Assembly: GCA_021845665.1 (NCBI GenBank)
Contig: JAJZVO010000001.1
Span: 62,001-126,000, forward strand
DNA length: 64,000 bases
DNA from: Bacteroidota bacterium
GTDB taxonomy: Bacteria > Bacteroidota > Ignavibacteria > Kryptoniales > JAKASW01
Direction of reading: 5' to 3'
The notes under the pieces were generated by a model. The model did not search any database. It was given only the letters and a program-made list of their open reading frames with translations, and was not told the origin of the DNA. A program made the translations under genes and the position numbers. Positions 45,789 to 64,000 of the stretch are shown here, piece by piece. How positions within the stretch are numbered: position 1 is the first letter of the stretch; every line of letters begins with the position of its first letter.

Positions 45789-48200
45789 TCATTCATATCT
45801 CAAAGACCTGACCGGATTTGCCGTCGCGGCTTTGACCGCGTGTGTGCCGACAGTCAGCAGGGCCACGACCAATGCAAGGGCACCGGAGAACACAAACACC
45901 CACACGCCGATGCTTGCTTTGTATGCAAAATTCTGGACCCAATTGTGCATGATGTAGTAGGCTACCGGCCATGCTATTAGGTTCCCTACGAGGACCCATT
46001 TTGTGAACTCTTTGGAAAGCATGAATACTACTTCCGGAACTGAAGCTCCGAGAACTTTCCTGATTCCGACTTCCTTGGTCCTTCTTTCCGCAGCGTATAA
46101 AACAAGACCATAGAGACCCGAACACGCGACCGCTATGGCGATGAAGGAAAACCATGTGAAGAGTACGCTCATTTTCTCTTCCGACTTGTAAAACGCATCA
46201 AGGCTCTTATCCAGGAAGCTGTATTCTATCTGACTGTTCGGGAACATTTCTTTCCATGTCTTCCGTATGAATCCGAGGGTAGCCCCAATATTGTTTTGAG
46301 AAATTCTCACGGCAATCTTATGCACACCATTGCCTCTAAATATTATGAATACCATCGGCTGTACACTGTAACGAAGGGACTGGTAATTGAAGTCACGAAC
46401 AACTCCTATTACCGTTCCGTTCAATAAATCCGGGATATTGCTGAAAGGCTTTCCGATTGCTTCCTTCGGTGACCATCCGATCTTCCTTACCGCCGCACGA
46501 TTGAGAATGTAAGTGTTTTCCTTCCGGTCGTTCCAGGAAAAGTTCCGCCCCGCGATTAGTTTCATCCCCAGAACGGGGATATAATCGGGGCCGATCAAAC
46601 CGAAGTCAGATTGCATGGATTCGACTTTTGATCTGCCTTTGAAGAAAAACGGGCCGACACTGAATGCGCCTCCGGGGAGTGCATCTGCGGCGGCCACACC
46701 AAGGATCCGAGGGTTTTCCAGGAGGTTCTGTTCGAACGGCTGATAGTCCCCATTTGTCGCTTGATCGTAATTGAGGACAACGACGTTGTCCTTGTTGAAG
46801 CCGATGTTATGATATCTAAGAAGATCATATTCTCTGATAATTACGATTGTACAGAAGATCAGCGCAATCGCGGCGGAGAACTGGAAGAGGATAAGTATCT
46901 GTCTGCCGAAGCTCTTTCCAGTCCCTCCTCTCCTGCCCAGCTTCAAGGCGTGCACCGGATGAAGCGACGAGAGGTAGAAGGCCGGAAGGATACCGGAGAA
47001 CAGGCTCGTTAAGACCCAGATGCCGATGATAGCGTACAGAATCGGAGGATTATGCAAGTAGCCAATTTGAAGAGAAGTGCCAAGAAGGCGATTCACACCG
47101 AGTACGAACGGCTCACTTAGACCGACGGCCGCGAGCAAGGAGATGAAACTCGTCAGTGCAGATTCCATCATGAACTGTCCGGCAAGCTACCTTCGCTCGC
47201 CGCCTACAACTTTTCTTATCCCAATTTCCTTCGCACGTATGAGGGACCTCGCAGTAGATAGGTTCACAAAATTCGCACAGGCTATGAGCAAAATGATAAC
47301 AGCGATGACAGTGAAAGCCGCGACTGTGGCTTTGCTCCCCTTCACCGGGATGTCGTAGCCGAGGCTGTTGTCCCAGTACAAATCCCCAAGACGTTCAAAG
47401 TACACTGTGGGTCTGCCGACCAGCGAAAGTAAATCCTTGCCCCAATATCCATCAAGGGTTTTCTGCCCATGCGAGTCGAGATTGTTGATATTTGAACCTT
47501 CGTTAAGGAGAATATATGTGTAATAGTTAAACTGAGTGCCGGTCTTAAGTATGTTCGAGTATCCGGTCAAATCGGGCAAAGAAGTGAGCGAACCCAGGTA
47601 GTCAAATTGGATTGTCGAGTTGGGCGGCGGGTTTTGCACCACCCCGGTTACTGTAAAATGAAACATGCCATTATAAAGGATGGTCTTCCCTATCGGATCT
47701 TCATCGCCAAAGAATTTCTTCGCGGCATCTTCCGTCAAGATAACGGATAGAGGATGTGCCAGCGCTGTCGCGGGATTCCCTTGAATCATTTTGAACGAGA
47801 ACACTCTGAAGAAGGCTGAGTCGACGAGAACGAACTGCTTTGCACGTATAACTTTGTCCCCGTATTTGAGAACAGGCTTCCCATACGGGCCGACGACATC
47901 GAAAGCATAAAGACGAACTACACTTTCGATTTGTGGAAATTGGCTCATGAGAAAAGGCCCGAGTGTCGCCGGAGAGAGAGCGACTTTAGTCATCGTACCA
48001 TTCAAAGGCAGCTCGGTATTAACACGGTAAATTCTATCAGCTTTCTTGTCGAAACTGTCATAACTGTATTCGTGCTGCACATACACGAATATGGTTATGC
48101 ACGCTGCCATGCCAATGGCAAGTCCCGCGATGTTGATGAACGAATAGAGCTTGTTCCGAAGGATGTTTCGGAAGGCGAGTTTCAGGTAGTTCTTTAGCAT
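45789..48200 (-). pseudogene. FtsX-like ABC permease P5, split by one in-frame TAG
   Basis: The ATG at 48200 (MLKNYLKLAFRNILRNKLYS) opens a frame that would be 803 residues and end NPVRSLRYE. Codon 338 (47187-47189) is TAG, in the phrase KEIGIRKVVGGERR-stop-LAGQF. P2 (ATRLQIARQF) and P7 (AERAQLISQF) have Gln there, so one C-to-T change of CAG explains it. No other damage: both halves keep their TM segments and the downstream half has the C-terminal motif RRTKEVGIRKVLGAS. An ATG six codons after the stop (MMESALTS) could restart translation. Recent pseudogene, suppressed stop or base error. Confidence 0.85.
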
Positions 48201-48203
48201 CAC

Positions 48204-48355
48204 TTACTCCCATATTCTGTGTGCATAGAGCATAGGGCAGAGCGCAAAGCACAACTTGCACACCCAGTGCAATATGCGCCATGCTCCATGCCCCAAGCCC
48301 TTTGCCCGTTTACTCATACCGCAGGGTTTCGATCCCGCAAGGCGGGATGTCGGCA
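48204..48355. repeat. Junction P6/P5: hairpin, stop-region copy, GCGCATAG repeat
   Basis: After the P6 stop at 48356 (minus strand): hairpin ATCCCGCCTTGCGGGAT (48331-48347), a copy ETLRYE plus stop (48312-48330), then CATAGAGCATAGGGCAGAGC and CATGCTCCATGCCCC, which can pair with each other, up to the P5 start. Confidence 0.6.
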
Positions 48356-50767
48356 TTACTCGTATCGTAATGCCTCCACCGGATTTGCTGTCGCCGCCCT
48401 GACTGCCTGAGCAGTCACTGTTGCCAATGCAATCATCAATGCCAATCCGCCCGAAAAGATAAAACTCCAAAGGCCCATGTCAATTCTGTATGCGAAGCTT
48501 TGAAGCCACCTCTCCATGGCATAGTACGCCAACGGCCAGGCAATGACATTTGCAATTATCACAAGCCTTATGAAGTCGCCAGCGATAAGGCTGACCACCT
48601 GCGGGATGGATGCACCAAGAACCTTTCGAATTCCCATCTCTTTCGTGCGCTGTTGGGTTGCATAAGCGGCGAGACCGAAGAGGCCAAGACAAGCGATCAA
48701 GATGGCAAGCACGGAAAATGTCAGAAAGATTTCACTTAGTCTCTGCTCCGATCGATAGAGCTGATCAAAGCTCTGATCAAGAAAATGAAAATCAAACGGG
48801 AAGTCGGGTGAGAATTGCTTCCAGGTTCCGTCAATGTAGCTGAGAGTAGCCGGAATATCCTTCGAAGACATTTTAATCACGATACCCTGGGCTGAGACAA
48901 GGGAAGAATCCATCACCATCACGACAGGTTCTATCCCTCTCCGCAGTGATCTGAAGTTGAAATCTTTCACGACTCCAATGACACGTCCCTTATGGTACCA
49001 CGCAATCAACGGTTGATTTATAGCAGAATCAGGCCTCCACCCGATCATTCGGGCGGCGGTTTCATTCAGGATGTAACCGTCACTCCAATCAGATGGCCTC
49101 TCCCATGAGAAATCACGTCCCGCCACGAGCTTGAGCCCGAGCGCTTTGACAAAATCCGGATCTACGATTAACGAGTAGGAATCCAAGGGATGCCATCCCG
49201 ATCTTCCTCTCCAATAAAACGTTTCTTCGTCGCTGGCATTTCCCGGAACCCAATTCGCCCTCGAAACGTACCGGACATCAGGTCGCTGGAGTAATTGGGC
49301 TTTGAAAGGATCATAGTCTCCTGTTATCTCTGAATTCGGCGGAACGAAGAGGACTTGTCTATCGTTAAAACCGAGTTTGTGCGAGACCAGAAAGTTGTAT
49401 TGCCTCCACACAACGACAGTCACAACCAGTAAAAAAACCGAAACGGCAAATTGGAAGACAATCAGTGACTTCCTCAATCTGTGTCCTCCCGTACGGCCTC
49501 CAAAAACTCCTTTGATTATGGAAGATGGTTCAAAGGAGGAAAGATACATCGACGGATACACACAGGCCAGAAAAACAACCAACGCCCAGACAGAAACAAA
49601 TGCGACGATTACTGCCGGGTTGGCGAGAAGCTCTGCGGATAGATGTGCTTTTGCCATGGAGTCAAATTCTGGCAGAAATAGTTCGAGAATCCCAAATGCG
49701 AGAACGGCCGATCCGAGCGTCAGCAGCGCAAACTCCACCATCAATTGACGGACTAGCCCCGACCGATTTGCGCCAAGCACCTTTCTCAAACCGATTTCTC
49801 TCGCCCTCGTCGCCGAACGTGCAGTTGAAATATTGATGAAGTTCACGCACGCGATAAGGAGAATGAGCAACGCTATAGCCGAAAGCATGTAATCGTAACG
49901 GAGGTCCCCTTTGTTTGGAAAATCATCTTGCAGACTTGTATTGAAGTGAATATTCCCTAACGGTTGAAGCACGATTTGGGATTCCCCCTCCTCGCGGAGC
50001 CCCACGTACTTGCCCACAAAAGCTGGCATCTGTTTTTCCAAGGACTTAATCGCGAGCCCTTTGGGGAGAAGGAGAAAAGTGAAGAAGTTTTCCGAGTTGA
50101 AATTATCTAAAATATCCTTGAACATACTGAGGTGGTACTGGGTGGTGTAAAGATCTTTGATATTGACAGATGACGCCAGATAGTTGAATTGAATCGAAGA
50201 GTTACGGGGAGGATCTTCAGCTACGCCGGTAACCGTGAAATCAAATAAGTTACTTACCCTGATGATCTTTCCGATTGGATCCGTGTCGCCAAAGATTTTC
50301 CAAGCCTCGCTTTGGGAAAGCACAAGCGAGAAAGGCCGGGCTAAGACCGTGCGCGGGTTTCCCTGGATGAGCGGAAATGTGAAGACGTCGAAAAATGTTG
50401 AATCGGCAAAGACGAAATCTTTCCCCGTGAAGAGCTTATCGCCGTATCTGATCACGGGTGTATAGAATGCAGGAGGCGTTATTCGCACAGCCCGAATGGA
50501 CGGGAACTCGTTCACGAAGGCCGGCGCGTAACCTGATGGCGTCAGGGGCCAGTTAGAATTGCCGCTACTATGTTTTGGTTCTACTACTACCCTGTAGATT
50601 CGATTATAATTGGTATTGAATCTGTCAAAGCTGAGGTCGTTCTCCACGTAAAGAAATATCAGCAAACACGCGGCCATTCCTACGGCCAACCCACCGACAT
50701 TGATCAACGAATAAGTCCTGGTTCGGAAGATGTTTCTAAGTGCGATTTTAAAATAATTCTTGAGCAT
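48356..50767 (-). CDS. FtsX-like ABC permease P6 (803 aa)
   Basis: ATG at 50767 (MLKNYFKIALRNIFRTRTYS), GGAG seven bases upstream. Middle motif TRAREIGLRKVLGANRSGLV, C-terminal QRTKEMGIRKVLGAS (Met for the usual Ile/Val). Ends NPVEALRYE. First core domain shows NSEIGYAPAFVNEF-type sequence (SGYAPAFVNEFPSIRAVRIT). Upstream of it the strand switches to the small plus-strand genes around hicBA. Confidence 0.93.
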   Translation of the reverse strand: MLKNYFKIALRNIFRTRTYSLINVGGLAVGMAACLLIFLYVENDLSFDRFNTNYNRIYRVVVEPKHSSGNSNWPLTPSGYAPAFVNEFPSIRAVRITPPAFYTPVIRYGDKLFTGKDFVFADSTFFDVFTFPLIQGNPRTVLARPFSLVLSQSEAWKIFGDTDPIGKIIRVSNLFDFTVTGVAEDPPRNSSIQFNYLASSVNIKDLYTTQYHLSMFKDILDNFNSENFFTFLLLPKGLAIKSLEKQMPAFVGKYVGLREEGESQIVLQPLGNIHFNTSLQDDFPNKGDLRYDYMLSAIALLILLIACVNFINISTARSATRAREIGLRKVLGANRSGLVRQLMVEFALLTLGSAVLAFGILELFLPEFDSMAKAHLSAELLANPAVIVAFVSVWALVVFLACVYPSMYLSSFEPSSIIKGVFGGRTGGHRLRKSLIVFQFAVSVFLLVVTVVVWRQYNFLVSHKLGFNDRQVLFVPPNSEITGDYDPFKAQLLQRPDVRYVSRANWVPGNASDEETFYWRGRSGWHPLDSYSLIVDPDFVKALGLKLVAGRDFSWERPSDWSDGYILNETAARMIGWRPDSAINQPLIAWYHKGRVIGVVKDFNFRSLRRGIEPVVMVMDSSLVSAQGIVIKMSSKDIPATLSYIDGTWKQFSPDFPFDFHFLDQSFDQLYRSEQRLSEIFLTFSVLAILIACLGLFGLAAYATQQRTKEMGIRKVLGASIPQVVSLIAGDFIRLVIIANVIAWPLAYYAMERWLQSFAYRIDMGLWSFIFSGGLALMIALATVTAQAVRAATANPVEALRYE

Positions 50768-50935
50768 CTCTCACTCCATGTTTTGTGGGTCCAGCGCAAA
50801 TGGCAAAGCGCGTCTTTTCTCTCTTCGCGCCTGGCGCTGTGCCCTCTTGTCTTGTCCGCTGTACGTTTTCAGTATTGTTGGAAGTCAAGGCTAACCACTT
50901 TATTCTGTCGGTGAAAGTTTTCCGGACAAAGAGAA
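50768..50935. other. Divergent region between P6 and the small plus-strand genes
   Basis: Contains degenerate GCGCAAATGGCAAAGCGCG words and a CCTCTTGTCTTGTCCGCTGTACG block similar in position to the sequence before the protease genes. Promoter for the small genes must lie here. Confidence 0.35.
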
Positions 50936-51151
50936 ATGATACCAACCAAAAAATGGCGATTCCGGGCGAATAAGGACGAAGTCCGAATTCCGAGAAAAGA
51001 CTGGGAATCACTGAAGAAAAATCCGGCGTTTGGGGAGCTGATTGAACTGATAGAAGACAAATACGACCTCGAAGAGGCAAAGGCGGCAAAAGGAAAAGAT
51101 ATTTCGCGGGCGGATTATCTGAAGAAACGTGCCATACGAAATAATCATTAA
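50936..51151 (+). CDS. Small antitoxin-like protein (71 aa)
   Basis: MIPTKKWRFRANKDEVRIPR then a helical, charged part (ELIELIEDKYDLEEAKAAKG) and DISRADYLKKRAI. Size, helicity and place 87 bases before hicB suggest an antitoxin or regulator of a toxin-antitoxin pair, without a clear family match. A relic of the same gene is at 39618, so it has been copied within the permease array. Confidence 0.6.
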   Translation: MIPTKKWRFRANKDEVRIPRKDWESLKKNPAFGELIELIEDKYDLEEAKAAKGKDISRADYLKKRAIRNNH

Positions 51152-51238
51152 GCCTTCCGCTTTCCTTTCTTCTACTATCGCAGTCTTGATTTCGCCCGCT
51201 CGGGGACTTAAGTTTTTGTGAAAGAGCCAGAGGCAGCA

Positions 51239-51469
51239 ATGACAAAGCACTATACGGCAAAGTATACGAAGATCGAATCGGGTTATATGGGGCAGCTTGT
51301 CGAGTGGCCTGAGGTAATAACCGAAGGGAAGAATCTTGAAGATTGTCGCAAATCTTTGAAAGATGCCCTCCATGAAATGCTCCTGGCATACGAACAAACC
51401 GGGCAGGAATTGCCTGCAAGCGCAGATCTGTTTGAACCGGTAGCGGTTGAGACAGACAGTGTCCGTTAA
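51239..51469 (+). CDS. hicB: HicB-family antitoxin
   Basis: 76 residues from the ATG at 51239; a start seven codons earlier is open but the relic at 42447 keeps this one. The partial RNase H-like HicB fold shows as YTAKYTKIESGYMGQLVEWP, ITEGKNLEDCRKSLKDALHE and MLLAYEQTGQELP. It has no C-terminal DNA-binding tail, so it is the short HicB form. It would bind and block HicA. The antitoxin comes first here, the reverse of E. coli hicAB. Its end overlaps hicA by 11 bases. Confidence 0.88.
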   Translation: MTKHYTAKYTKIESGYMGQLVEWPEVITEGKNLEDCRKSLKDALHEMLLAYEQTGQELPASADLFEPVAVETDSVR

Positions 51470-51647
51470 GAGGCGCGACCTCGTTAAGTATCTCATAGAG
51501 AACGGTTTCTATCTTCTCCGGGAGGGGGCTAATCATTCGATATACACGAACAATCAAAAGACAATACCTGTGAAGCGGCACAAAGTTTTCGACCGCATCA
51601 CCGCCAACGAGTTGTGCAAACAAGCAGGTCTCAAACCGAAGTTCTGA
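51459..51647 (+). CDS. hicA: HicA-family mRNA interferase toxin
   Basis: 62 residues from the GTG at 51459 (MSVKRRDLVKYLIENGFYLL), 11 bases inside hicB, so translation is coupled; a TTG four codons earlier is an alternative. The dsRBD-like HicA fold is clear: REGANHSIYTN has the catalytic His, then TIPVKRHKVFDRITANELC and KQAGL. It cleaves mRNA when free. Both genes look intact. Confidence 0.9.
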   Translation: MSVKRRDLVKYLIENGFYLLREGANHSIYTNNQKTIPVKRHKVFDRITANELCKQAGLKPKF

Positions 51648-51928
51648 AGGTAAAGCACACGGCGTGAAGTGGATGACGATCTGCTCCACAAGCTTTGCTG
51701 CTTGCACAATGCGCGCCGAGGATGTTTCATTCATACCTCAAGTTCTCCATGCTGTTTCACGGCATTTCGCTGCACTCACTCGTACCTCAGAGACTCGATC
51801 CCGCCAAGTCGGATTTCGAGTCTACTCATAGCGTAAAGTCTCCATCCCGCATGGCGCATAGGGCAGAGCGCATAGCGAGCGGGCTACGTTTCATTCGCTT
51901 TGCTCCATGCGCTATGCGCCGTGCAAGG
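51648..51928. repeat. Junction P7/hicA with up to three stop-region copies and a large hairpin
   Basis: Minus-strand permease-end copies lie near 51730 (LRYE-like), 51780-51800 (ESLRYE) and 51820-51835 (TLRYE), with ATCCCGCC-type hairpin words. Then 51845-51928 forms a long imperfect hairpin: GGCGCATAGGGCAGAGCGCA against TGCTCCATGCGCTATGCGCC. Confidence 0.6.
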
Positions 51929-54346
51929 TTATTCATAGCGTAGAGATTGGATCGGATTTGCCGTCGCGGCCTTGATCGCATGCGCCGCCACAGTCATAAG
52001 CGCCACCGCCAAAGCGATTCCACCAGATAGAATGAATATCCAAATTCCAATCCCAGTTCTGTACGCAAAACCTTGTAACCATCTCGTCATAACATAGTAT
52101 GCCAATGGCCAGGCAATCACATTTGCTACCAGGACGAGTTTCACGAATTCTCCCGACAGCAGTTTGATTATGACGGGTACCGATGCGCCCAAGACCTTTC
52201 TAATTCCAATCTCTTTCGTCCGCTCTTGCACACCGAATGACGCAAGCCCGAACAAGCCAAGACAGGCGATAGCAATTGCCAAGCCTGCGAACCCGTTTAC
52301 CGCGCCGCCGAACCTGCCGTCATTGACGTATAGTCTTGCGAGATCGGCATCCAGGAACGAATAGTCGAAAGGATACCCGGGATAAATCTCATCCCATCTT
52401 GTCTTCAAGAAATTCAAGGTCGCTTGATAATTCAAGGGAGCGATCCTGCAAATCAAAAATTGATACTGACTTTGCTTGCCGTCAAAAATTACCAAAGGGT
52501 CAATCTTGTTTCGCAGAGATTGATAATTAAAATCTCTGACCACCCCCACTATCTTGCAATTGCCCAGGCCATTATAAGTCACCAGTTCCTGACCGACAGG
52601 ATTATTAAGTCCCAGCTCACGTTGTGCGCTTTCATTGATGATCATTCCATACTGAGTATGCGACTTTGAAAAAGGCACACCAGCCTTCATGTGTAAACCA
52701 AGAACGTTTATGTATTCGGAATCAACCGGTACCCAGTTCATAACCAATGATTTCGAGTCTTTGCCCGTGGTTTGGAAACTACTCTTCATGAAGATTCCCC
52801 CCGGATAGCCATAAGAAGCTGTCGTCGAGACCACATTGGGATTCCTGGCTATTTCCGTGCGATAAGCATCAAATCTGCTCATCTCGTCAGCTTGCCACAG
52901 GGGCCGGCACAAACTGATGACAACTAAGTTGCTTTTGTTAAATCCAAGGTCCGAATTCTGGATGTAGCCCATTTGATTCGCTACTACTATCGCGCAAACA
53001 ATCAACGCAATCGAAATTGTAAACTGAAAAACTACTAGAAACTTGCGGACAGCGTCTCCAAGATTCACCGACTTTATTGTCCTCTTAAATAACGATAACG
53101 GCTCCATGGATGAAAGAAATACAGCAGGATAAATACCAGCCAGGAGCCCCGTCACTACGGTCGCGGCAACGAAACCTATTCCAATAACACCACCGTTTAA
53201 CTTGTGCAGGCTAAGCCCGACTCCAGTGAGAGCTTTCGCGTATGGTGCGAGAAGTTCAACCAAAACAAGGCCGAGCACGGTCGCCAAGAGGCTTGTAATC
53301 AGAGACTCCCCGAGAAATTGCGATATCAATTGAGCCCTCTCTGCCCCCAGTACTTTTCTGACACTAATTTCCTTCGAACGCTTGACATATTTAGCCGTTG
53401 AAAGATTCATGAAGTTTACACACGCCAGAAACAGGAGAAACAACGCAATCACGGAAAGGATATATAAAGTCTGGATGTCCATGTTAGAAGGGAAATCATA
53501 ATCCAGATGCGACCGCAGATGTATGTCTTTCAAAGGCTGGAGTATGACGGACACGCTCATCCCTTCAAGCTCAGGATTTCCCTTCAGGTGTTGTTCGGTA
53601 AATAACGCTAACTCTTTTCTAAGATTCCCTGCGGATTGGCTATGAGACGACAAGATAAATGTATAGTAACTGATTGTGCCCCACTTCCCGATTGTAATAT
53701 CGTGCGCCCACCAATTGGTATAGAGAGTGCTAAAGGAACTGAGAAATTGAAACTGCAGACTCGAATTTGACGGAGGGTCAGCTACAACCCCGGTGACAGT
53801 GAAATTGAGAGTCGTGTCTCCCTGCTCCAACTGTACCACCTGACCAACCGGATCTCGATCGCCAAAGTATTTCAATGCCGCGGACTTTGTAATAACAATC
53901 GAATAAGGAACCGACAAGGCTGATGATGAATTCCCTTCGAGCAGTTTGTAACTGAAGACAGAAAAAAAGCTGGAATCTACAAACATAAACCCGCGTGTGT
54001 AAAAGGACCTGTCTTGAAATTTGACCAACTGCCTGGCAATCATCCCCAAGTCAAATATCCTGGTGTAATTCTCAACACCGGGGACATCATCTTTCAACGC
54101 AGGGCCAAGCTTATCCGAAGACACCGCCGCTTTTATGGTCTTACCGGAGAAGCTGATCTCGCTTGCAGTCCGGTAGATACGACTATAGTTCTTGTTAAAT
54201 CTGTCGAAGCTGAACTCATACTGAACGTACAAAAGAATGACGAGACAGCTTGCGATGCCGATGGAAAGCCCAACGATGTTGATGAACGAATAGACCTTGT
54301 TCCGAAGGATATTTCGGAAAGCGATCTTAAGGTAATTCTCAATCAT
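51929..54346 (-). CDS. FtsX-like ABC permease P7 (805 aa)
   Basis: ATG at 54346 (MIENYLKIAFRNILRNKVYS), AAGGATCG upstream. Middle motif KRSKEISVRKVLGAERAQLI keeps the Gln lost in P5; C-terminal motif ERTKEIGIRKVLGASVPVII. Ends NPIQSLRYE. The first core domain is acidic with TRIFDLGMIARQLVKFQDRS. The last 30 or so bases of the gene and the downstream hairpin are almost identical to those of P8. Confidence 0.93.
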   Translation of the reverse strand: MIENYLKIAFRNILRNKVYSFINIVGLSIGIASCLVILLYVQYEFSFDRFNKNYSRIYRTASEISFSGKTIKAAVSSDKLGPALKDDVPGVENYTRIFDLGMIARQLVKFQDRSFYTRGFMFVDSSFFSVFSYKLLEGNSSSALSVPYSIVITKSAALKYFGDRDPVGQVVQLEQGDTTLNFTVTGVVADPPSNSSLQFQFLSSFSTLYTNWWAHDITIGKWGTISYYTFILSSHSQSAGNLRKELALFTEQHLKGNPELEGMSVSVILQPLKDIHLRSHLDYDFPSNMDIQTLYILSVIALFLLFLACVNFMNLSTAKYVKRSKEISVRKVLGAERAQLISQFLGESLITSLLATVLGLVLVELLAPYAKALTGVGLSLHKLNGGVIGIGFVAATVVTGLLAGIYPAVFLSSMEPLSLFKRTIKSVNLGDAVRKFLVVFQFTISIALIVCAIVVANQMGYIQNSDLGFNKSNLVVISLCRPLWQADEMSRFDAYRTEIARNPNVVSTTASYGYPGGIFMKSSFQTTGKDSKSLVMNWVPVDSEYINVLGLHMKAGVPFSKSHTQYGMIINESAQRELGLNNPVGQELVTYNGLGNCKIVGVVRDFNYQSLRNKIDPLVIFDGKQSQYQFLICRIAPLNYQATLNFLKTRWDEIYPGYPFDYSFLDADLARLYVNDGRFGGAVNGFAGLAIAIACLGLFGLASFGVQERTKEIGIRKVLGASVPVIIKLLSGEFVKLVLVANVIAWPLAYYVMTRWLQGFAYRTGIGIWIFILSGGIALAVALMTVAAHAIKAATANPIQSLRYE

Positions 54347-54445
54347 GGTACGATCCTTCTTAAGGGCATGGCGCATAATGCAGAGCGCATAGCGAGCGGG
54401 CCACGTGTCATTCGCTTTGCTCCATGCGCTATGCGCCGTGCAAGG
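54347..54445. repeat. Junction P8/P7: long GCGCATAG hairpin, near-identical to the one after P7
   Basis: 54362-54445 matches 51838-51928 with only about five differences over roughly 120 bases when the permease ends are included. It forms the same large imperfect hairpin (GGCGCATAATGCAGAGCGCA / CATGCGCTATGCGCC). Confidence 0.65.
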
Positions 54446-56869
54446 TTATTCATAGCGTAGAGATTGGACCGGATTTGCCGTCGCGGCTTTGACCGCATGT
54501 GAAGCCACGGTCGCAAGCGCGATAAGCAATGCAATAGCTCCCGACACCGCAAAAATCCATAAGCTCAAGCTCGTACGGTATGCGAAGAGGCTCAGCCACT
54601 TATTCATGAGCAAGTACGCGAGCGGCCACGCGACGACATTCGCTATCAACACCCACTTCACAAACTGCAGCGACAGCAGCCTGGTTACTTCCGGCACCGA
54701 AGCTCCTAGAACTTTTCTGATCCCGATCTCTTTCGTCCGCTGTTCAGTCGTGAACGCGGCCAATCCGAAAAGGCCGAGACAGGCTATGATTATCGCCAGC
54801 GCCGAAAACAAGCCGACAATTTCTTCGGTCTTGAAATCGAGAGAGTAGAGTTGGTGTAAATCATCGTCAAGAAACGAATAGTTTAGAGGTTCATTCCCTG
54901 CATACTTTTTCCACGCGCTTTGGATCGCTGTGATTCCTTTTGCCTGATTGCCGGGCGCCAATCGAGCCGTGACATAACTCCCCACGTACTCTTTATAGCG
55001 CGGAAGAATTATCGCCAGCGGTCTTACCGGCTCGTGCATCCACGCGTACTTGAAATCCTTCACCACGCCAATGATGTCGAACGGCACCCACTCTTTCGGC
55101 CTCGGACCGGGGAAAAGAAGACGTCTCCCCACGATGTTCTTTATGCCGTAGAATCTCTCCAGCGCCTCGTTGACAACGACCGCACCTGTATCCGAAGGAT
55201 GCGATGCTGAGAAGAATCTTCCCTCCGCCATTTTCAACTCATACGTCTTCGCAAAATCATTATCGGAAACCAACACGCATGTGTTCTCCGGCTGATCCTT
55301 GCCTGAGCCCTCAAGTTTGTATGCGTGGTTGCCACCCAGATTGCCCGGAACAGCCGATGAATTGGTGAGGCTTGCGATGTTCTTGTTCCCTTCAATCTCG
55401 TGCATGAACGACTGGAACTGGCCCGATAGATGGTCTGCCCCGTTCACCACGAGAAGACCGGATTTTTGAAATCCGAGGTTCACGGTACGGACATATCTCA
55501 TCTGAGAATAAATGACGAATGTTGCGATAATCAGGACGATGGACACTGCAAACTGAGAGACAACCAGTGTATTCCGTAGTTTGGATTTCCTTCCGCCTTC
55601 CGTCGCACTCGACCTGAGAGCTTTGACCGAATTCGAAGACGACAAATAAAACGCGGGATAGATCCCTGCGACAACGCCAACCACAACGACAAAGCCAACC
55701 AGGACCGGTATCAGTAGCAGATCGCCGAAAAGGTCGAAGCTCATCTTCCTGCCGACGACGTCGCTGAAAAGTGGAAGGAATAGCTCGATAATTGCCACTG
55801 CCATCAGCACCGAAATTGCAGTCATCAAAATCGACTCAGCCAGGAATTGCCGGATGAGATGGAATCGGGGTGCCCCTAATGATTTTCTCACTCCGACTTC
55901 CTTTGTGCGCTTCGCCGATCTCGCAGTCGCGAGATTGATGAAGTTTATCGTCGCAATTAACAGAATCGCGATCGCGATTGCTGAGAAGACATAAACCAAA
56001 GGGGCGTAACCGCCCGGCTCTATTTCACCGAAAGGCGAGGCGAGGTGAATCGATGTCAAAGGCTGGAGCCTGTACCCGTACCTGTTCCCTGTCGCGAGGA
56101 AGTCTTTGTACGAAGTGCCCGTAAACTCTTTCAATTGTGAGGCGGCATGATCGGTCACTTCCCGATCCAGTTTGCCCTGGACATTCCCGAGATTCGCGCC
56201 GCTTCGGAGGAGAAAGTAGGTGTAGTAATTGTTTGTCAACCAGGCCGTGTTCCGACTGTCCGGCAGTGTCGTGAGCGATACGATGAAATCCGGATGGAAA
56301 TGTGAATTCTGTGGAAAGTCTTTGAACACGCCGGTCACTACATAATCATTCTGTCTGTCGACTGTGGCGACTTTGCCGAGCGGATTCTCGTTACCGAAAT
56401 ATCTGCGGGCAGTCGACTCATTCATCACAATGGTGTTTGGCTGCGTGAGAGCGGTCTTCGGGTCTCCTTCCACAACATGGATGGTGAACACTTCGAAGAC
56501 GGTGGAGTCGGCCCAGAAGAATCTCTCTTCGTTGAAAGCCTTGTTCTTATACGCGACAGTTTGAGAACCTTGGAGATGCAAGCGCGTGTATGCGACGACA
56601 TCGGGTACATCGTGCGCGACTTGAGGTCCAAGAGGTGCAGGACTTGCCGGTCCGCTGAAACCGTGACCGTTGACCCTGACAGAGAAAGCAGCACGGTAAA
56701 TGCGGTCCGCGTTCTTGTTGAACTTGTCGTAGCTGAACTCGTCCCGCACGAAAGTTAGAATCGCAAGACAGCTGGCAATGCCTACTGCAAGACCGGCAAT
56801 GTTGATGAACGAATAGAGCTTGTTCCTGAGAATGTTTCTCACTGCGATTTTCAAATAGTTTTTCAGCAT
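54446..56869 (-). CDS. FtsX-like ABC permease P8 (807 aa)
   Basis: ATG at 56869 (MLKNYLKIAVRNILRNKLYS) with AAAGGAG six bases before it, the best ribosome site in the array. Middle motif KRTKEVGVRKSLGAPRFHLI and C-terminal motif QRTKEIGIRKVLGASVPEVT resemble P9 closely, as does the first core domain (NGHGFSGPASPAPLGPQ against GGEVRSAMSPAPMGP in P9). Ends NPVQSLRYE. P8 and P9 look like the youngest full-length pair of duplicates, apart from shared 3' ends with P7. Confidence 0.93.
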   Translation of the reverse strand: MLKNYLKIAVRNILRNKLYSFINIAGLAVGIASCLAILTFVRDEFSYDKFNKNADRIYRAAFSVRVNGHGFSGPASPAPLGPQVAHDVPDVVAYTRLHLQGSQTVAYKNKAFNEERFFWADSTVFEVFTIHVVEGDPKTALTQPNTIVMNESTARRYFGNENPLGKVATVDRQNDYVVTGVFKDFPQNSHFHPDFIVSLTTLPDSRNTAWLTNNYYTYFLLRSGANLGNVQGKLDREVTDHAASQLKEFTGTSYKDFLATGNRYGYRLQPLTSIHLASPFGEIEPGGYAPLVYVFSAIAIAILLIATINFINLATARSAKRTKEVGVRKSLGAPRFHLIRQFLAESILMTAISVLMAVAIIELFLPLFSDVVGRKMSFDLFGDLLLIPVLVGFVVVVGVVAGIYPAFYLSSSNSVKALRSSATEGGRKSKLRNTLVVSQFAVSIVLIIATFVIYSQMRYVRTVNLGFQKSGLLVVNGADHLSGQFQSFMHEIEGNKNIASLTNSSAVPGNLGGNHAYKLEGSGKDQPENTCVLVSDNDFAKTYELKMAEGRFFSASHPSDTGAVVVNEALERFYGIKNIVGRRLLFPGPRPKEWVPFDIIGVVKDFKYAWMHEPVRPLAIILPRYKEYVGSYVTARLAPGNQAKGITAIQSAWKKYAGNEPLNYSFLDDDLHQLYSLDFKTEEIVGLFSALAIIIACLGLFGLAAFTTEQRTKEIGIRKVLGASVPEVTRLLSLQFVKWVLIANVVAWPLAYLLMNKWLSLFAYRTSLSLWIFAVSGAIALLIALATVASHAVKAATANPVQSLRYE

Positions 56870-57006: not shown

Positions 57007-59430
57007 TTACTCATACCTTAAGGATTCCACAGGATTTGCAGTCGCCGTTTTAATTGCATGCAAACTCACCGTCAACAGCGCAATGACGAGTGCCATGACA
57101 CCCGACGCGACGAAAATCCACACGCTGATGTCCATCCTGTATGCGAAATTCTTCAGCCAATTATTCATTACGTAGTAAGCCAGCGGCCAGGCTATGACGT
57201 TTGCGATTAACACCCATCTCATGAACTGTCCTGACAGGAGCGCGACCACTTCCGGCACAGATGCACCGAGGACCTTTCGAATCCCAATCTCCTTGGTTCG
57301 CTGCTCGGTGATAAAAGCGGCAAGCCCCAACAAGCCCAAACATGCGATGAAAATCGCCAGGACAGAAAATGTTCCGGCAATCTTACTGGTCCTCTGATCT
57401 GCTGCATAAAGATTCTGCAGGCTGTTATCGAGAAAGTTGAAGTTGAATTCTTCGTTGCCTGCATACTCTCTCCAGGCTCCCTCAATGAAGGATATCGTGC
57501 TCAGGTGGTTCCCAGGCGCAAGGCGCACCGTAACGAATTGGGCAGCGCTGGTTTCCGGCAGTAGACCGATGACGAGCGGCAAAATCGGCTCGTGGAGCGA
57601 GTGATAATTAAAATCTTTCACGACTCCGACTACCTCCAGTCGCCTTTGGTCTGCCATTGTCTCGCCCGGCAACACGAGATACTTTCCGACCAGGTCTTTT
57701 ACACCGAAGGCTTTCTCAACTTCCTGGTTGACGACAATTGCCGCCGTGTCTGAAGGGTGACCCCGAGAAAAGAATCTCCCTTCCGCCATCTGCAGCTTGT
57801 ATGTCTTTGCAAAGTCGTAATCGCTTCGCATCGTTCGTAAGTCTACAAGCTGACGGGCACCTGTCCCTTCGAGCCAGAATCCACTGTCGCTATACTGGTT
57901 CCCCGGAATCGCCGTCGAGTTGGTCACGTTTAATATGTCTGTGTTCTGCCTCAATTTGTCTTCGAAGGATCGTATCCGGCCTCCTAAGTCATCTGTTCTA
58001 TAGATCACTACGCTCTCTTCCTTGTCAAATCCCAGATTTCTTGTTTGTACATAGTTCAATTGATCATATATCACGATTGTACCGATGAAGAGAGCGATTG
58101 AAATCGCGAACTGGAACACAACAAGTCCGTTTCTTACGAGCGATTTTCTTCCTCCTTTCTTCGTCTCCCGCTTGAGCGCATCGATAGGATGGAAAGACGA
58201 TAAGTAGAGGGCGGGATAACATCCGGCAATGATCCCGACAACAATAGCGAGACCGATAAGAATCGGAATCGTCGAGAGATTAGCCAAAAGACCGAGACTC
58301 AGTTTCTTGCCGGCGGTTTCATTGAAAAGAGGAAGCATGAGCTCGACGATACCGACCGCTAATATGACTGCTGCGCTGCTCATCATCACTGACTCCGCTA
58401 TGAACTGCCAGACCAGGTGAGAGCGAGGCGCCCCGAGCGTCTTCCTGATTCCCACTTCCTTCGCTCGCTTCTCGGATCTCGCTGTGGCAAGGTTTACGAA
58501 ATTTATGCAGGCGATCAGAAGGATCGCGATTGCTATCGCCGAGAAGATATATTCAGTGGAAATGTTGCCGTTCTGCTCCAGCTCGTAATCGAGATGCGAG
58601 TACAAGTGTATCGATTTCAGCGGCTGCATATTGAACCCGACCCTGTTGCCTGCGGCGAGGAATTGCTCGATCGGCACCCCCGTAACAGCTTTCACCTGTG
58701 GACCGGCATGATCGACAAGTTCCTGGTTGAGCCTGTGCCTGAATTGTTCCGGGTCGGTTCCCTTCTTCAGGAGGAAATACGTGTAGTAGTTGTTGCTCAT
58801 CCAGTTTGGATTCCGGCCATCTTTCAAAGTGCAAAGCGATGCGAGAAGGTCAGCGTGAAAATGCGAGTTCCTTGGGATATCCTTTATCACGCCAGTGATG
58901 ATATATTTGGTGCCGTTTCCCACATCCAGTATCTTCCCGATCGGGCTATCCTGACCGAAATACCTCCTGGCAGCAGACTCGGTGATCACAAGCGTATTCG
59001 GCTGAGCAAGAGCAGTCCCGGGATTCCCAGTCACAAATGGCAGGGTAAAGACACTGAATACTGTAGAATCAGCCCAGATCAACTGCTGGTTCGCAAATGT
59101 TTTTTTGTGATACCTGACTACTTTTCCTCCTTCGTAATGAAGCCGGGCATACGTCGTGACTTCGGGAAAATCCTGAAAGGCCGTAGGTCCCATCGGGGCC
59201 GGGCTCATGGCTGACCTGACTTCGCCGCCGTGGAAAGTTGCTGTGAACCCTGGCCTGTATACTTGATCCGCATTCTTGTTGTACCTGTCGTAGCTCAGTT
59301 CATCTCTCACGAAGAGGGCTATGATTATGAAGCAGGCAATGCCCACGGCGAGGCCGACAATGTTAATGACCGTGTAGGATCTGGAGTTTCTGAGATTTCT
59401 CAGAGCGACTTGGACATAATTCTTAAGCAC
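57007..59430 (-). CDS. FtsX-like ABC permease P9 (807 aa), first permease of the operon
   Basis: Starts at a GTG at 59430 with AAGGAG six bases upstream. It shows the layout shared by all nine: TM1 at 20-42, a MacB-type periplasmic core at about 50-290, TM2 292-314, the cytoplasmic coupling motif KEVGIRK 324-330, TM3 and TM4 to 410, TM5 433-455, a second periplasmic core to about 680, TM6, KEIGIRK 713-719, TM7, TM8 and the tail NPVESLRYE. MacB of E. coli has four TM and carries its own ATPase. Here two FtsX units are fused and the ATPase is separate. Likely moves or mechanically releases a lipid, peptide or lipoprotein. Confidence 0.93.
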   Translation of the reverse strand: MLKNYVQVALRNLRNSRSYTVINIVGLAVGIACFIIIALFVRDELSYDRYNKNADQVYRPGFTATFHGGEVRSAMSPAPMGPTAFQDFPEVTTYARLHYEGGKVVRYHKKTFANQQLIWADSTVFSVFTLPFVTGNPGTALAQPNTLVITESAARRYFGQDSPIGKILDVGNGTKYIITGVIKDIPRNSHFHADLLASLCTLKDGRNPNWMSNNYYTYFLLKKGTDPEQFRHRLNQELVDHAGPQVKAVTGVPIEQFLAAGNRVGFNMQPLKSIHLYSHLDYELEQNGNISTEYIFSAIAIAILLIACINFVNLATARSEKRAKEVGIRKTLGAPRSHLVWQFIAESVMMSSAAVILAVGIVELMLPLFNETAGKKLSLGLLANLSTIPILIGLAIVVGIIAGCYPALYLSSFHPIDALKRETKKGGRKSLVRNGLVVFQFAISIALFIGTIVIYDQLNYVQTRNLGFDKEESVVIYRTDDLGGRIRSFEDKLRQNTDILNVTNSTAIPGNQYSDSGFWLEGTGARQLVDLRTMRSDYDFAKTYKLQMAEGRFFSRGHPSDTAAIVVNQEVEKAFGVKDLVGKYLVLPGETMADQRRLEVVGVVKDFNYHSLHEPILPLVIGLLPETSAAQFVTVRLAPGNHLSTISFIEGAWREYAGNEEFNFNFLDNSLQNLYAADQRTSKIAGTFSVLAIFIACLGLLGLAAFITEQRTKEIGIRKVLGASVPEVVALLSGQFMRWVLIANVIAWPLAYYVMNNWLKNFAYRMDISVWIFVASGVMALVIALLTVSLHAIKTATANPVESLRYE

Positions 59431-59449
59431 GCGATCTCCTTTTGGGCGC

Positions 59450-59539
59450 ATTGCGCAGAGCGTTCAGCGCGGCCCCGTCATGATATATCACAGGGAACCT
59501 CGCACTTTGCTCCATGACCTTTGCACCATGCCCTTTGCG
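59450..59539. repeat. GCGCATTGCGCAGAGCG-type repeat between ATPase 2 and P9
   Basis: GGGCGCATTGCGCAGAGCG on the left and TGCACCATGCCCTTTGCGCT on the right pair imperfectly around an unrelated loop (ATGATATATCACAGGG). The right arm enters the last codons of the ATPase gene. Confidence 0.5.
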
Positions 59540-60205
59540 CTATGCCTTTTCGATCCACCCATCTTTCAACCTTATGATCCTGTTTCCATACGCAGCGTTC
59601 GTTTCGGAGTGCGTTACCTGTATTATGGTCGTACCCTGGTTATTCAATTCCTTCAGGAGGTCCATGATTTCCTTGCCCTGTTCTGAATGCAGATTTCCCG
59701 TAGGTTCATCCGCCAAAATCAGCTTTGGCTCCGCGATCACCGCCCTCGCGATCGCCACGAGCTGCTGCTGTCCGCCGGAGAGCTGGTTTGGAAATAAGTC
59801 CTTCTTGGCAACGATGTTGAACTTGTCGAGCGCCTCCGCCACTCTTCCCTTTCTGTCGTTCCCATTCACCTTTTGGTAAAGGAGCGGCGTCTCAAGGTTT
59901 TCATAAACCGTCAGCTCATCGATCAGGTGATAACTCTGGAATACGAAACCGATATAAGTCTTGTGAAGTTCGGTCAGCTTCTTCTCGCTCATCTTGTGGA
60001 CGGGTTCATCGAGGAAATAATATTCGCCGTTCGACGGGGTATCCAGCATACCGATGATATTGAGAAGTGTTGTCTTGCCTGAGCCCGATGGTCCCATGAC
60101 GGAAACGAACTCGCCCGGTTTTACTTCGAGGTTGATGTTTCGTAGGACGTAGGTCTTGATGGCCCGGTTTTCGTAGTACTTTTCGATGGCTGATAGCTTT
60201 ATCAT
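59540..60205 (-). CDS. ABC transporter ATPase 2 (LolD/MacB type) with altered D-loop
   Basis: 221 residues; GAGGAAGAA precedes the ATG. Walker [10 protein letters not shown]-loop [13 protein letters not shown], signature [14 protein letters not shown] (Leu where Arg is usual), Walker [17 protein letters not shown] and H-loop QVTHSE. In the D-loop the usual Asp (NLDS) is His. The Glu after Walker B and the switch His are intact, so ATP hydrolysis is still possible. It should power one or more of the nine permeases from the cytoplasmic side. The 3' end overlaps repeat words. Confidence 0.95.
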
Positions 60206-60346
60206 TTCTTCCTCTTTTCAAGAAGGAGAAAGGAAACAGGAGGTAGGAGACAGGAATCACATGTTCCCTTGCTCCTTCACTTTCCTATCTCCTTTCTCCT
60301 GTCTGCCGAATCTCGCGCTTTGCGCTTTGCCCTCTGCGCTTTGCGC
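60206..60346. repeat. Purine/pyrimidine hairpin plus GCGCTTTGC words between the two ATPase genes
   Basis: AGGAGAAAGGAAACAGGAGG and TAGGAGACAGGA (60223-60254) can pair with TTTCCTATCTCCTTTCTCCT (60281-60300). After it comes CGCGCTTTGCGCTTTGCCCT up to the stop of ATPase 1. Confidence 0.55.
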
Positions 60347-61036
60347 TCACACGTGAAACTTCTCTTTATAGTTTTCGGTCACCACATGCCCATCGAAAAG
60401 ATGTATTATGCGATGAGCAAACTCCGAATCGTGCGGTGAGTGAGTGACCATAAGGATAGTTGTGCCCCCTTCGTTCAGTTGAGTCAGTATGTTCATCACC
60501 TCTTCTCCGTTGGCGGAATCCAGATTCCCGGTCGGTTCATCGGCAAGTATAAGTGCGGGCTTCGCGACAACCGCCCTGCTGACCGCCACGCGCTGCTGTT
60601 GGCCGCCCGAAAGCTGTTGCGGAAAATGATCCCTTCGATGCATTATCTGCATGCGTTCCAGCACCTCATCAACTATCTTCTTCCTCTCGGAAGCCGACAC
60701 CCCAAGGTAGAGCAGCGGCAGCTCGACGTTCTCGAAGACTGTCAGTTCATCGATCAGGTTGAAGCTCTGAAATACAAACCCGATGTTCCGCTTCCGGATG
60801 TTTGCGCGCTGCCGTTCCGTATATTTCGATACTTCCTCATTTAAGAAGTAGTATTCACCTTCGCTGGGGTTGTCAAGCATTCCGAGAAGATTAAGGAGCG
60901 TGGACTTGCCGCAACCTGACGGCCCCATTATTGCGACAAACTCTTTCTCCTTTATGTCGATGTTGACACTGTCGAGAGCCGTGGTTTCGACTTCTTCGGT
61001 GGTGTAAAGCTTCTTCAGGTTGACAGTTCGAATCAT
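60347..61036 (-). CDS. ABC transporter ATPase 1 (LolD/MacB type)
   Basis: 229 residues. All motifs are canonical: Walker [10 protein letters not shown]-loop [11 protein letters not shown], signature [14 protein letters not shown], Walker [17 protein letters not shown] with normal D-loop, H-loop [23 protein letters not shown] precedes the ATG. Second gene of the operon, 107 bases after the adaptor gene. Because its partner at 59540 has a changed D-loop, a mixed dimer with one strong and one weak site is conceivable. Confidence 0.96.
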
Positions 61037-61143
61037 AGGTTAATCCTTTCTTATTACGTGAAGACAGGAAACGGGAGAAAGGACACAACACAGCCGCATT
61101 CCTTTCTCCTGTCTGCTTCCTCCTTTCTCCCCACTATTGATCT
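61037..61143. repeat. Purine/pyrimidine hairpin repeat between adaptor and ATPase 1
   Basis: AGACAGGAAACGGGAGAAAG (61065-61084) against CTTTCTCCTGTCTGCTTCCT (61103-61122), third member of the family at 56889 and 60223. Confidence 0.5.
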
Positions 61144-62397
61144 TCATTTGTTTATGACGAGCTGGTTGACATTTCCAAAGTTGTCGTACGACGACGTCAC
61201 GACCCTGTCGCCCGGCTTCAGCCCGCTTAAGACTTCGAAGTAATCCGGATTTTGCCGTCCAAGGCTGATGCTCCTTCTCACGGCAACGTTCCCCGAGCCG
61301 TTAAGGATAAAAACCCATTGCCCGCCGGTCGCCTGGTAAAAACCTCCTCGCGCCAACAGCAACGCTTTAGTCCTCTCACTTAGCTGAAGCCTCACCTGGA
61401 GTGTCTGTCCCCGTCTTATTCCATCGGGAACCCGACCCAGGAAGTTCATATCGACCTGGAACTTTCCACCCGTAACCTCGGGATATACTTTAGTCACTAT
61501 GAGTTTGTAGTCACTGTCATTTATCGTAACGGTGGCGTGCAATCCCCCGACAACCCGCGCGATGTAGAACTCGTCGATATCGGCTCTCACCTTGAACCCA
61601 TCTAGTGCATCGATGACACCGAGCTGGTCTCCCGGATTTTTCGATTGACCTATCTCGGCATTCAGAGAAGTAAGCTGACCACCAATCGGCGCCTTAACGG
61701 TAAGGTTGTCGATCGTCTCCCTTATCAATCGCAGATTCTGCTCCATCCTCGTAATCGAGGAGGCAATTTGTGAAATCTGAGACACTCCGAGGAGCGAATC
61801 CTGCTCGTAGTTTCTTCGCGCCAACTCTTCCTGCTCAAGCGCCTGATGGTAATTGTTGTACGCCAGTTCATAGTCCTGTACGGAGATGAGTTTCCTGTCG
61901 AACATCTTCTTCTGGCGCTCAAAATTTTCATTATAGTTAGTCAGCTGATATACGGCGCTGACGAGCGCATTCTGGAGCGAGATACTATTCTCCTGAATCT
62001 GAAGACGCGTGTTCCGTGCGTCGTTTATCTGCTGATAAGCAAACGTCTCCTGCTGGAGTGCATTCAGCTTAACATTGGTATTAGAAAGCTTCAGAAGTTT
62101 CTGACCTTTCTTGACGATTGTTCCCTCTTCGACATATTTCGCCTCCACTATGCCACCCTGGATCGCGTCAAGGTAATACGAGGTCTTGGGCATAACTGTC
62201 CCGGTTACAGGGATGAATTCCTGAAAGTCACCTTCCCTTACGGTGGATATTGTTATCTTGTCCGCGTCGACATTCAGTTTGGACCCGCTGTCTGAAATTA
62301 TCATCGCTATCAACACGATGAACAACGCGACTCCGCTCGCGTATATCCAGAATCGCGTCCTCTTGTAGAATGGCTTCTTTTCGATCTTCCTGTCCAA
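61144..62397 (-). CDS. HlyD/MacA-type periplasmic adaptor (membrane-fusion protein)
   Basis: 417 residues starting at a TTG (62397) with AAGG eight bases upstream; no ATG is close. One TM helix (FWIYASGVALFIVLIAMII, about 17-36) anchors it. The split lipoyl domain is marked by GTVMPKTSYYLDAIQGGIVE and LTVKAPIGGQLTSLNAEIG. Between them lies a long coiled-coil hairpin (about 100-235). Beta-barrel and membrane-proximal parts end in LKPGDRVVTSSYDNFGN. It would bridge the ABC permease to an outer-membrane channel, though no TolC-like gene is in the window. First gene after the sigma-54 promoter. Confidence 0.93.
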   Translation of the reverse strand: MDRKIEKKPFYKRTRFWIYASGVALFIVLIAMIISDSGSKLNVDADKITISTVREGDFQEFIPVTGTVMPKTSYYLDAIQGGIVEAKYVEEGTIVKKGQKLLKLSNTNVKLNALQQETFAYQQINDARNTRLQIQENSISLQNALVSAVYQLTNYNENFERQKKMFDRKLISVQDYELAYNNYHQALEQEELARRNYEQDSLLGVSQISQIASSITRMEQNLRLIRETIDNLTVKAPIGGQLTSLNAEIGQSKNPGDQLGVIDALDGFKVRADIDEFYIARVVGGLHATVTINDSDYKLIVTKVYPEVTGGKFQVDMNFLGRVPDGIRRGQTLQVRLQLSERTKALLLARGGFYQATGGQWVFILNGSGNVAVRRSISLGRQNPDYFEVLSGLKPGDRVVTSSYDNFGNVNQLVINK

Positions 62398-62459: not shown

Positions 62460-62475
62460 TACAACTGGTGTGCCA
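62460..62475 (-). promoter_or_regulatory. Sigma-54 promoter of the adaptor-ATPase-permease operon
   Basis: Minus strand TGGCAC-ACCAG-TTGTA: perfect -24 element, exact GG-N10 spacing, -12 element TTGT for TTGC. It lies 63 bases before the adaptor start and faces away from a sigma-54 activator gene. Transcription would start near 62450. Confidence 0.75.
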
Positions 62476-62557
62476 TCAAACTGTCAGTGGATGCGGGACG
62501 GATTTCCATCTTTTTAAATGAATTTGAATGTTTCATCGAATAGTGAGAAGTTACGGG

Positions 62558-62573
62558 TGTTCGGAATCGGACG
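62558..62573. promoter_or_regulatory. Enhancer-type site 1
   Basis: TGTTCGGAATCGGACG: ten of twelve bases fit the palindrome TGTCCG-N4-CGGACA. About 98 bp upstream of the sigma-54 promoter. Confidence 0.6.
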
Positions 62574-62577
62574 GCAG

Positions 62578-62593
62578 CGCCCGATAGCGGACA
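62578..62593. promoter_or_regulatory. Enhancer-type site 2
   Basis: CGCCCGATAGCGGACA: again ten of twelve bases of TGTCCG-N4-CGGACA. Its centre is 20 bp from that of site 1, about two helical turns, as expected for side-by-side dimers of an NtrC-type activator. The remaining 62594-62875 shows no gene. Confidence 0.6.
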
Positions 62594-62875
62594 GTGGCGT
62601 GAGGAAGAAAATGAAGAGGGATGAGATTGACAGCAGACATCCGCGGGCTTCTCAAGAACTGCAGTGACTTTCCTTTGAGAGATCGAATTTACAGATCGTA
62701 TGTCAGGTGCAGAAAGATATCTTCGATATCGTATAAGTTAATCGAAACAAGAAGACGCGAAACGGCGCAAGAGAGCCCCGGGACTTTCGGTGGCCCTAGT
62801 TTCATCCTCCGTGCTCCATCCTCCGTGATTCCTTTCAACGATTTACACAAATACACAACCAGCGAGACCCAAAGC

Positions 62876-64000
62876 TCATGGCCAACAAAACCGGTAAGAT
62901 CCTCATAATCGACGACGACGAAGACGTACTCTATTCGGCCCGGCTTCTTCTGAAGCAATACTACTCGATCACACGGACCGAGAAAGACCCGGGGCAGATT
63001 CCTTCAATCCTTAGAGATGAACGATACGACGTGATTCTTCTCGATATGAATTTTTCGGGAGATGCGACGAGCGGGACGGAAGGATTCGATTGGCTCAGGA
63101 AAATTTTGGAGATCGATCGAGCTGCCGTCGTGGTCCTCATAACGGCATACGGCAATATCGAGATGGCGGTAAAGGCTATCAAGGAAGGGGCTATCGATTT
63201 CGTTTTGAAACCGTGGCAAAATGAAAAGCTCCTCGCTACGGTCTCTTCCGCAATGAGACTTAGCGAATCAAAACAGGAAATCGAGGATCTACGCTCCAAG
63301 CAGAAGCAACTCACAAGCGATCTCGACAGCCGGTATCAGGAAATCATCGGCGCATCCGATGAGATGCAAAAAGTCTTCAGCACGATTTCGAAAGTAGCTT
63401 CGACGGATGCCAACGTTCTCATAGTCGGCGAGAATGGTACAGGCAAAGAACTGGTAGCCAGGGCAATCCATAGGAAGTCCAAACGCAATGGGAATATCTT
63501 CCTTGGCGTCGATGTCGGATCCCTGAGTGAAAGTCTCTTTGAGAGCGAGCTCTTCGGACATGTGAAGGGCGCCTTCACAGACGCGAAGGAGGATAAAGTC
63601 GGCCGTTTCGAGATAGCGTCCGGCGGTACGTTATTCCTTGACGAGATCGGGAATCTCACAAAAAATCTGCAGATGAAACTTCTGACGGTCCTGCAAAACA
63701 GACAAGTCACGAGGCTCGGCGCGAATATCCCGAAACCGATCGACATAAGACTCATCTGTGCGACTAACCTTCCTGCCGAAGAGATCAGATCCGAGGAGAG
63801 GTTCCGGCAGGACCTACTCTACCGGATTAACACCGTCGAAATACAGCTCCCCCCGCTTAGAAAGCGCACCGATGACATTCCTCTCCTTGCGTACCATTTC
63901 ATACAAACGTACTCACAGAAATACGGTAAGCCCCTCAAACGATTTGACGACGACGCGATGCAGCAACTTCACAGGTACCGATGGCCCGGTAATGTCCGGG
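62876..64000 (+). CDS. Sigma-54-dependent response regulator, NtrC type (3' end outside window)
   Basis: 375 codons are visible. The receiver domain has DDDED (12-15 region), phospho-Asp56 in VILLDMNFSG, Thr in LITAYG and Lys111 in FVLKPW. The AAA+ domain has Walker A GENGTGKE (184-191), GAFTDA (231-236, where GAFTGA is usual) and Walker B TLFLDE (251-256), then LYRINTVEIQLPPLRKR and the start of WPGNVR. The Fis-type DNA-binding end is cut off. Ribosome site is weak. It is divergent from the adaptor operon and very probably drives it through the two sites at 62558 and 62578. A partner kinase gene may follow beyond the edge. Confidence 0.94.

Follow-up and report, generated by a model that had tools for sequence, protein, structure and literature searches.

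A probable NtrC-type sigma-54 control unit, with paired enhancer sites and a divergent activator, upstream of an adaptor-ATPase-permease operon

Results

A promoter, two phased palindromes and a divergent activator gene

The end of the window (the whole 64,000-nucleotide stretch of DNA analysed here) very probably holds a complete NtrC-type sigma-54 control unit that drives an adaptor-ATPase-ATPase-permease operon. A -24/-12 promoter, a pair of palindromes and a divergent regulator gene lie there at defined spacing, the pair is unique in the genome, and the arrangement is conserved together with the regulator and its target genes. The features concerned are the following:

62878 to 63999, plus strand: NtrC-type response regulator, from its gene start, 458 aa in full, running past the window (Pfam)
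62578 to 62593, no strand assigned: promoter-distal enhancer palindrome CGCCCG-N4-CGGACA (exact position; pair unique in the genome; conserved)
62558 to 62573, no strand assigned: promoter-proximal enhancer palindrome TGTTCG-N4-CGGACG (exact position; conserved)
62460 to 62475, minus strand: sigma-54 -24/-12 element TGGCACACCAGTTGTA (score; aligned in orthologs)
61144 to 62397, minus strand: HlyD-type periplasmic adaptor with a TTG start, first gene of the operon (Pfam HlyD_3)
60347 to 61036, minus strand: ABC ATPase 1 (Pfam ABC_tran; syntenic in relatives)
59540 to 60205, minus strand: ABC ATPase 2 (syntenic in relatives)
57007 to 59451, minus strand: MacB/ADOP-like permease (Pfam MacB_PCD and FtsX)
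54446 to 56869, minus strand: MacB/ADOP-like permease (syntenic in relatives)
51929 to 54376, minus strand: MacB/ADOP-like permease, the last before a 1.16-kb gap (syntenic in relatives)

The original prediction had placed TGGCAC-N5-TTGT before the adaptor, and this element is indeed there, reading TGGCAC-ACCAG-TTGTA, with its -12 G 64 bp from the TTG start codon at 62397. It has the make-up of a sigma-54 promoter (a -24 GG and a -12 GC with 10 bp between them, in a genome that encodes RpoN), with T in place of the -12 C: the -12 element reads TTGT, versus TTGC in the relatives G009 and G010. With a simple consensus set of sigma-54 weights, only three sites score as high in 64 kb on both strands; of the three, only that at 62460-62475 falls in one of the gaps between genes that were examined around the permease array, and its score was reached in none of 300 dinucleotide shuffles of the surrounding sequence.

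The two palindromes, TGTTCG-GAAT-CGGACG and CGCCCG-ATAG-CGGACA, are 16 bp long each and stand 20 bp apart centre to centre, as had been proposed, though they are imperfect and agree with a doubled TGTNCG-N4-CGNACA at 17 of 20 fixed positions. The -24 GG and the near edge of the pair are 83 bp apart, and the pair spans roughly -143 to -108 relative to the expected start site; the 100-120 bp first estimated was about right. As in known upstream activating sequences, at least two dyads lie 80-200 bp upstream and are kept with the activator.

That the divergent gene encodes an NtrC-type regulator is borne out by its domains (Response_reg, Sigma54_activat, AAA_lid_14 and HTH_8), which pass the Pfam cut-offs for PF00072, PF00158, PF25601 and PF02954. 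The protein, whose full gene occupies 1879-3255 of locus L002, thus has the receiver, the sigma-54-interacting AAA+ domain and the C-terminal Fis-type HTH of NtrC-type bEBPs; its closest solved relatives are 4l4u, 1ny5 and ZraR 1ojl. A histidine kinase gene (HATPase_c) lies directly downstream, where the cognate kinase of an NtrC-type response regulator is expected, and is syntenic in relatives. The genome contains one RpoN copy and about 20 full-length sigma-54 activators.

Between the pair and the regulator, a short plus-strand ORF (62621-62760) begins with LTADIRGLLKNCSDFPLRDRIYRS, which we take to resemble the remnant of a four-helix-bundle (23S rRNA intervening-sequence) gene. In several relatives a longer version of this ORF seems to occupy the same place.

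The enhancer pair is unique in the genome

A genome-wide pattern search, along the lines of the first check proposed, gave a single copy of the paired motif in 4.64 Mb when up to 3 mismatches were allowed (reversed control, 0) and no second pair at that threshold in the whole genome; weaker pairs within the window were isolated 14/20 matches only. Single palindromes were tried as regulon markers and proved useless alone, the genome having 6 and the reversed control giving 8. It is the pair, its position and its conservation that carry weight; a palindrome on its own is not significant. Since it was at this very site that the motif was first read, independent evidence comes from its conservation.

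The sites are conserved with the adaptor operon and follow exporter genes

Conservation of the palindromes upstream of orthologous operons was the test set in advance, and the pair was found in all ten orthologous adaptor promoters aligned. Within the genus, 12 of 13 genomes have an adaptor match, partial in one, and 12 of 13 have a regulator ortholog, the window's own counted; G001 has no adaptor, no regulator ortholog and no pair. We aligned ten adaptor promoters, nine from genus members and one from another family. All ten have the pair, scoring 16-20 of 20 fixed positions, with both copies perfect in G008. The distance from pair to GG is exactly 83 bp in seven of the ten and 81, 75 and 137 bp in the others, and this spacing held while the sequence in between diverged. 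In relatives the adaptor begins at the same point with TTG, ATG or GTG, which supports the annotated start.

The same alignment bears on the nature of the promoter. An ordinary sigma-70 promoter could occupy the same bases, with the palindromes bound by an unrelated repressor or activator, and a weak 9/12 match at 62476-62447 does overlap the site. However, such matches occur in the region at chance level (14 found, 14.5 expected), orthologs share GG at -24 and TTG at -12 and conserve nothing at a -10 box, and the sites co-occur with this regulator across phyla. We consider a sigma-70 promoter very improbable and retain a sigma-54 promoter as the preferred reading.

Two short blocks are also kept in the otherwise diverged ortholog spacers (62475-62558 here): AACTTC beside the pair and, about 30 bp beyond it, TCAAAT. 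Judged from sequence, they are a possible site for an architectural protein. The TCAAAT block, which lies between pair and promoter, was also considered as a bend site of the IHF type; this was rejected, the IHF consensus giving no fit when judged by eye.

In some relatives the operon has been rearranged. In G007 and G004 several kilobases separate the adaptor operon from the regulator. The pair (18-19 of 20) sits there between this operon and a permease gene that diverges from it; a -24/-12 element faces the adaptor, 84 bp from the pair in each genome, and a weaker one faces the permease. G012 has a lone permease on a different contig (C24), preceded by a pair and -24/-12 of its own; in G023, pair and -24/-12 precede the adaptor and also a permease; and in G006 a four-permease array has the pair with no convincing -24/-12. 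Because the pair accompanies adaptor and permease genes that have moved, the sites follow the exporter genes and not the regulator only.

These rearrangements help to judge whether the palindromes, even if bound by the regulator, might mainly control the regulator-kinase genes, the adaptor being transcribed from another promoter. In Cyclobacteriaceae, many orthologs lie away from any adaptor or permease, and there, as in G002, the pair is found upstream of the regulator in several genomes. G002, however, keeps only a partial adaptor match (query 238-416) and a degenerate pair (15/20), as expected after loss of the target. Elsewhere pair and -24/-12 precede the relocated genes just described, and the -24/-12 elements face the adaptor at fixed spacing. 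Such an arrangement is very unlikely here, and we keep to control of the adaptor operon as the main role of the pair.

The genus also holds a paralogous regulator-kinase pair, divergent from an ATPase-permease-second activator operon (G000, contig C17, locus L066, about 6868-7104). The regulator identity of this paralogous system is 56%, its own paired sites are altered and conserved (TGTATC-N5-CGCACA and TGTGCC-N5-CGAACA, about 22 bp apart) and its promoter, GGGCAC-N5-TTGG, conserves a GGCA-type -24/-12, comparable in nine genomes.

The proximal operon is the likely target

From 62397 to 51929, the adaptor, both ATPases and three permeases lie close together on one strand, with gaps of 69-141 bp among the ATPases and MacB-type permeases that follow the adaptor. 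A 1.16-kb gap (50768-51928) separates them from about six more permease genes, one of them split:

34402 to 50767, minus strand: further MacB/FtsX-type permeases, candidate targets at most (Pfam), made up of
34402 to 36867, minus strand: further permease (Pfam)
37004 to 39358, minus strand: further permease (Pfam)
39915 to 42362, minus strand: further permease (Pfam)
42707 to 45175, minus strand: further permease (Pfam)
45789 to 47171 and 47187 to 48203, minus strand: further permease, split (Pfam)
48356 to 50767, minus strand: further permease (Pfam)

The original prediction had taken the whole permease array as probably one inducible regulon. Its proximal part stands: the closely spaced genes from adaptor to third permease are very likely the circuit's target. 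Beyond the gap, at 34402-50767, we found no second enhancer pair and no strong -24/-12 element.

The split permease consists of a PCD half (47187-48203) and an FtsX half (45789-47171) and is probably a broken gene or an assembly error. The gaps around the ATPase genes, 60206-60346 and 61037-61143, contain purine-rich inverted repeats (AGGAGAAAGGA...TCCTTTCTCCT type), which may be dispersed repeats of intergenic DNA or hairpins for RNA processing. Low-complexity runs built up from TTTGCGCTATGCCCTTTGCGC are seen at 59500-59550 and 60310-60345, and relatives have comparable CATTGATCAATGATC runs at similar intergenic places.

As to what the operon encodes, the best models for adaptor and permease are those of the darobactin exporter (DarB, DarC) and the ADOP permeases, all below their cut-offs. 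The nearest full-length NCBIfam model of the adaptor is DarC, at 208.8 of the 450 bits required, and the permease reaches 150.9 of 700 bits against DarB, below the curated equivalog cut-off, and 295.7 of 622.3 bits against the ADOP duplicated permease TIGR03434, likewise below the curated cut-off.

Regulator and sites co-occur across phyla

Regulator orthologs, defined by at least 60% identity, are carried by 21 of 149 genomes. The pair at up to 3 mismatches is present in 16 of these 21 versus 10 of the 128 other genomes (Fisher p = 6e-11), the G009 match among the 16 lying at a chance place while its operon copy has 4 mismatches. The reversed pattern also occurs in 10 of the 128, and in none of the 21, so the rate in genomes lacking the ortholog is the control level. 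In the remaining five ortholog genomes there is no pair within 3 mismatches, some having weaker ones.

We then collected 80 regulator loci, 61-89% identical, from named genomes in Bacteroidota, Ignavibacteriales, KSB1, Caldithrix, Acidobacteriota, Aminicenantes and Neomarinimicrobiota records. They contain 51 pairs (spacing 3-7) against 2 for the reversed pattern, and most of the 51 separate the regulator from a divergent adaptor or permease gene. In the majority of the 49 operons tested the pair is followed by a -24/-12 element, with a fixed 66-bp spacing in 12 Bacteroidota operons. The best element between pair and gene, compared with dinucleotide shuffles, gives a combined p of 3e-43 over the 49 operons, a value that overstates independence since the operons are interrelated and several were chosen because the pair had been found there. 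Together with the site, the recognition helix [IL]TRxxLYRR[LM]EK is kept. Taken as a whole, the comparative evidence (orthologous operons, moved regulon members, co-occurrence in 149 genomes and other phyla) strongly supports the idea that promoter, paired sites and divergent activator would work as one circuit.

A scan for extra targets in eight named Bacteroidota genomes gave 10 pattern matches and 0 for the control. Related DUF3244 secreted proteins are encoded near three of them (L218, L219 and L223, in Cyclobacteriaceae genomes). At least two of these three look like terminators with T runs, and they share synteny; they were not counted, and an extension of the regulon to these loci is doubtful.

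The terminator-like appearance of some same-pattern matches (L218, L219), which run into T runs, raises the question of whether the palindromes might be RNA hairpins, as in a terminator or a mobile repeat, and not DNA binding sites. In the window, however, the pair lies between divergent genes and has no T run, so that no transcript is expected to end there. What is conserved is moreover sequence and spacing, not mere pairing, and the pair is single-copy in the genome. A role as hairpins is thus extremely improbable, and we read the palindromes as binding sites of the divergent regulator.

Discussion

How might this control unit operate? Activators of the NtrC type bind dyads as phosphorylated dimers and form a ring, which reaches sigma-54 RNA polymerase through a DNA loop and opens the promoter. 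Here, the divergent regulator, served by the adjacent kinase, would when phosphorylated bind as dimers both TGTNCG-N4-CGNACA palindromes, whose 20-bp phase corresponds to about two helical turns. Once bound, it would assemble an AAA+ ring that loops about 100 bp to the sigma-54 RNA polymerase waiting at TGGCAC-N5-TTGT, and ATP use by the activator would open the promoter of the adaptor-ATPase-ATPase-permease operon. Transcription would start at the position expected from the -24/-12 element, probably continue to the third permease and be inducible by the signal that reaches the kinase.

The contact loop of the regulator (loop region 63550-63600) is a point against this scheme, as is the TTGT at -12: of 84 orthologs, 83 read GAFTDA there and not GAFTGA. 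For Desulfovibrio, GAFTDA is listed among the natural variants that are tolerated and stay active (PMC4641369), and NorR with the equivalent substitution, G266D, is active and escapes repression by the regulatory domain (PMC2941729). Since the equivalent change frees NorR from such repression, the receiver may control this activator differently.

In the kinase, as in relatives across phyla, a very short loop joins two membrane helices, and the protein lacks a periplasmic sensor domain. The signal is therefore likeliest to be a disturbance of the membrane or envelope, or the exporter's own state, and by analogy with intramembrane-sensing kinases it may be perceived within the membrane or through a partner protein. 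In pairing a two-helix short-loop kinase with FtsX-type ABC permeases the locus recalls BceRS-BceAB. It differs from it by an NtrC-type sigma-54 activator as output, a separate adaptor and many MacB-type permeases; the regulator is NtrC-type and not OmpR-type as in BceRS systems, which leaves the kinase topology as the sole resemblance. A further possibility, which we would place somewhat short of an even chance, is that regulator, short-loop kinase, paired sites and MacB-type exporter operons belong together as a single ancient module for envelope responses, common to Bacteroidota, Ignavibacteria-type lineages, KSB1, Acidobacteriota, Aminicenantes and Neomarinimicrobiota at regulator identities of about 60% or more, and that this module would act like a Bce-type exporter-sensing system with a sigma-54 output.

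The circuit is of a textbook type; the set of regulator, sites and kinase, and its regulon, are to our knowledge undescribed. NtrC-glnA, ZraSR-zraP and NorR-norVW likewise combine a divergent or adjacent activator of receiver-AAA-Fis type, at least two palindromic enhancers about 100-150 bp upstream and a -24/-12 promoter. Unlike these circuits, the present one has TGTNCG-N4-CGNACA enhancers in a fixed 20-bp phase, the GAFTDA loop, exporter targets and a kinase with no periplasmic sensor domain. A 2025 in-silico survey reports sigma-54 promoters enriched before FtsX/COG0577 permeases in Bacteroidia, Opitutia and gamma-Proteobacteria, and calls this first evidence (PMC12316311). Its passages on these permeases that we found name no activator, enhancer site or kinase for them, and these are added here; a search of open-licence papers turned up none on this activator, its sites or its kinase.

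The present analysis offers a testable enhancer motif, with its cognate activator, for exporter-like permease operons that make up a sigma-54 regulon. This regulon occurs in cultured genera such as Labilibaculum, Roseivirga and Adhaeribacter; the signal of the short-loop kinase and the cargo of such permease arrays are thereby open to experiment.
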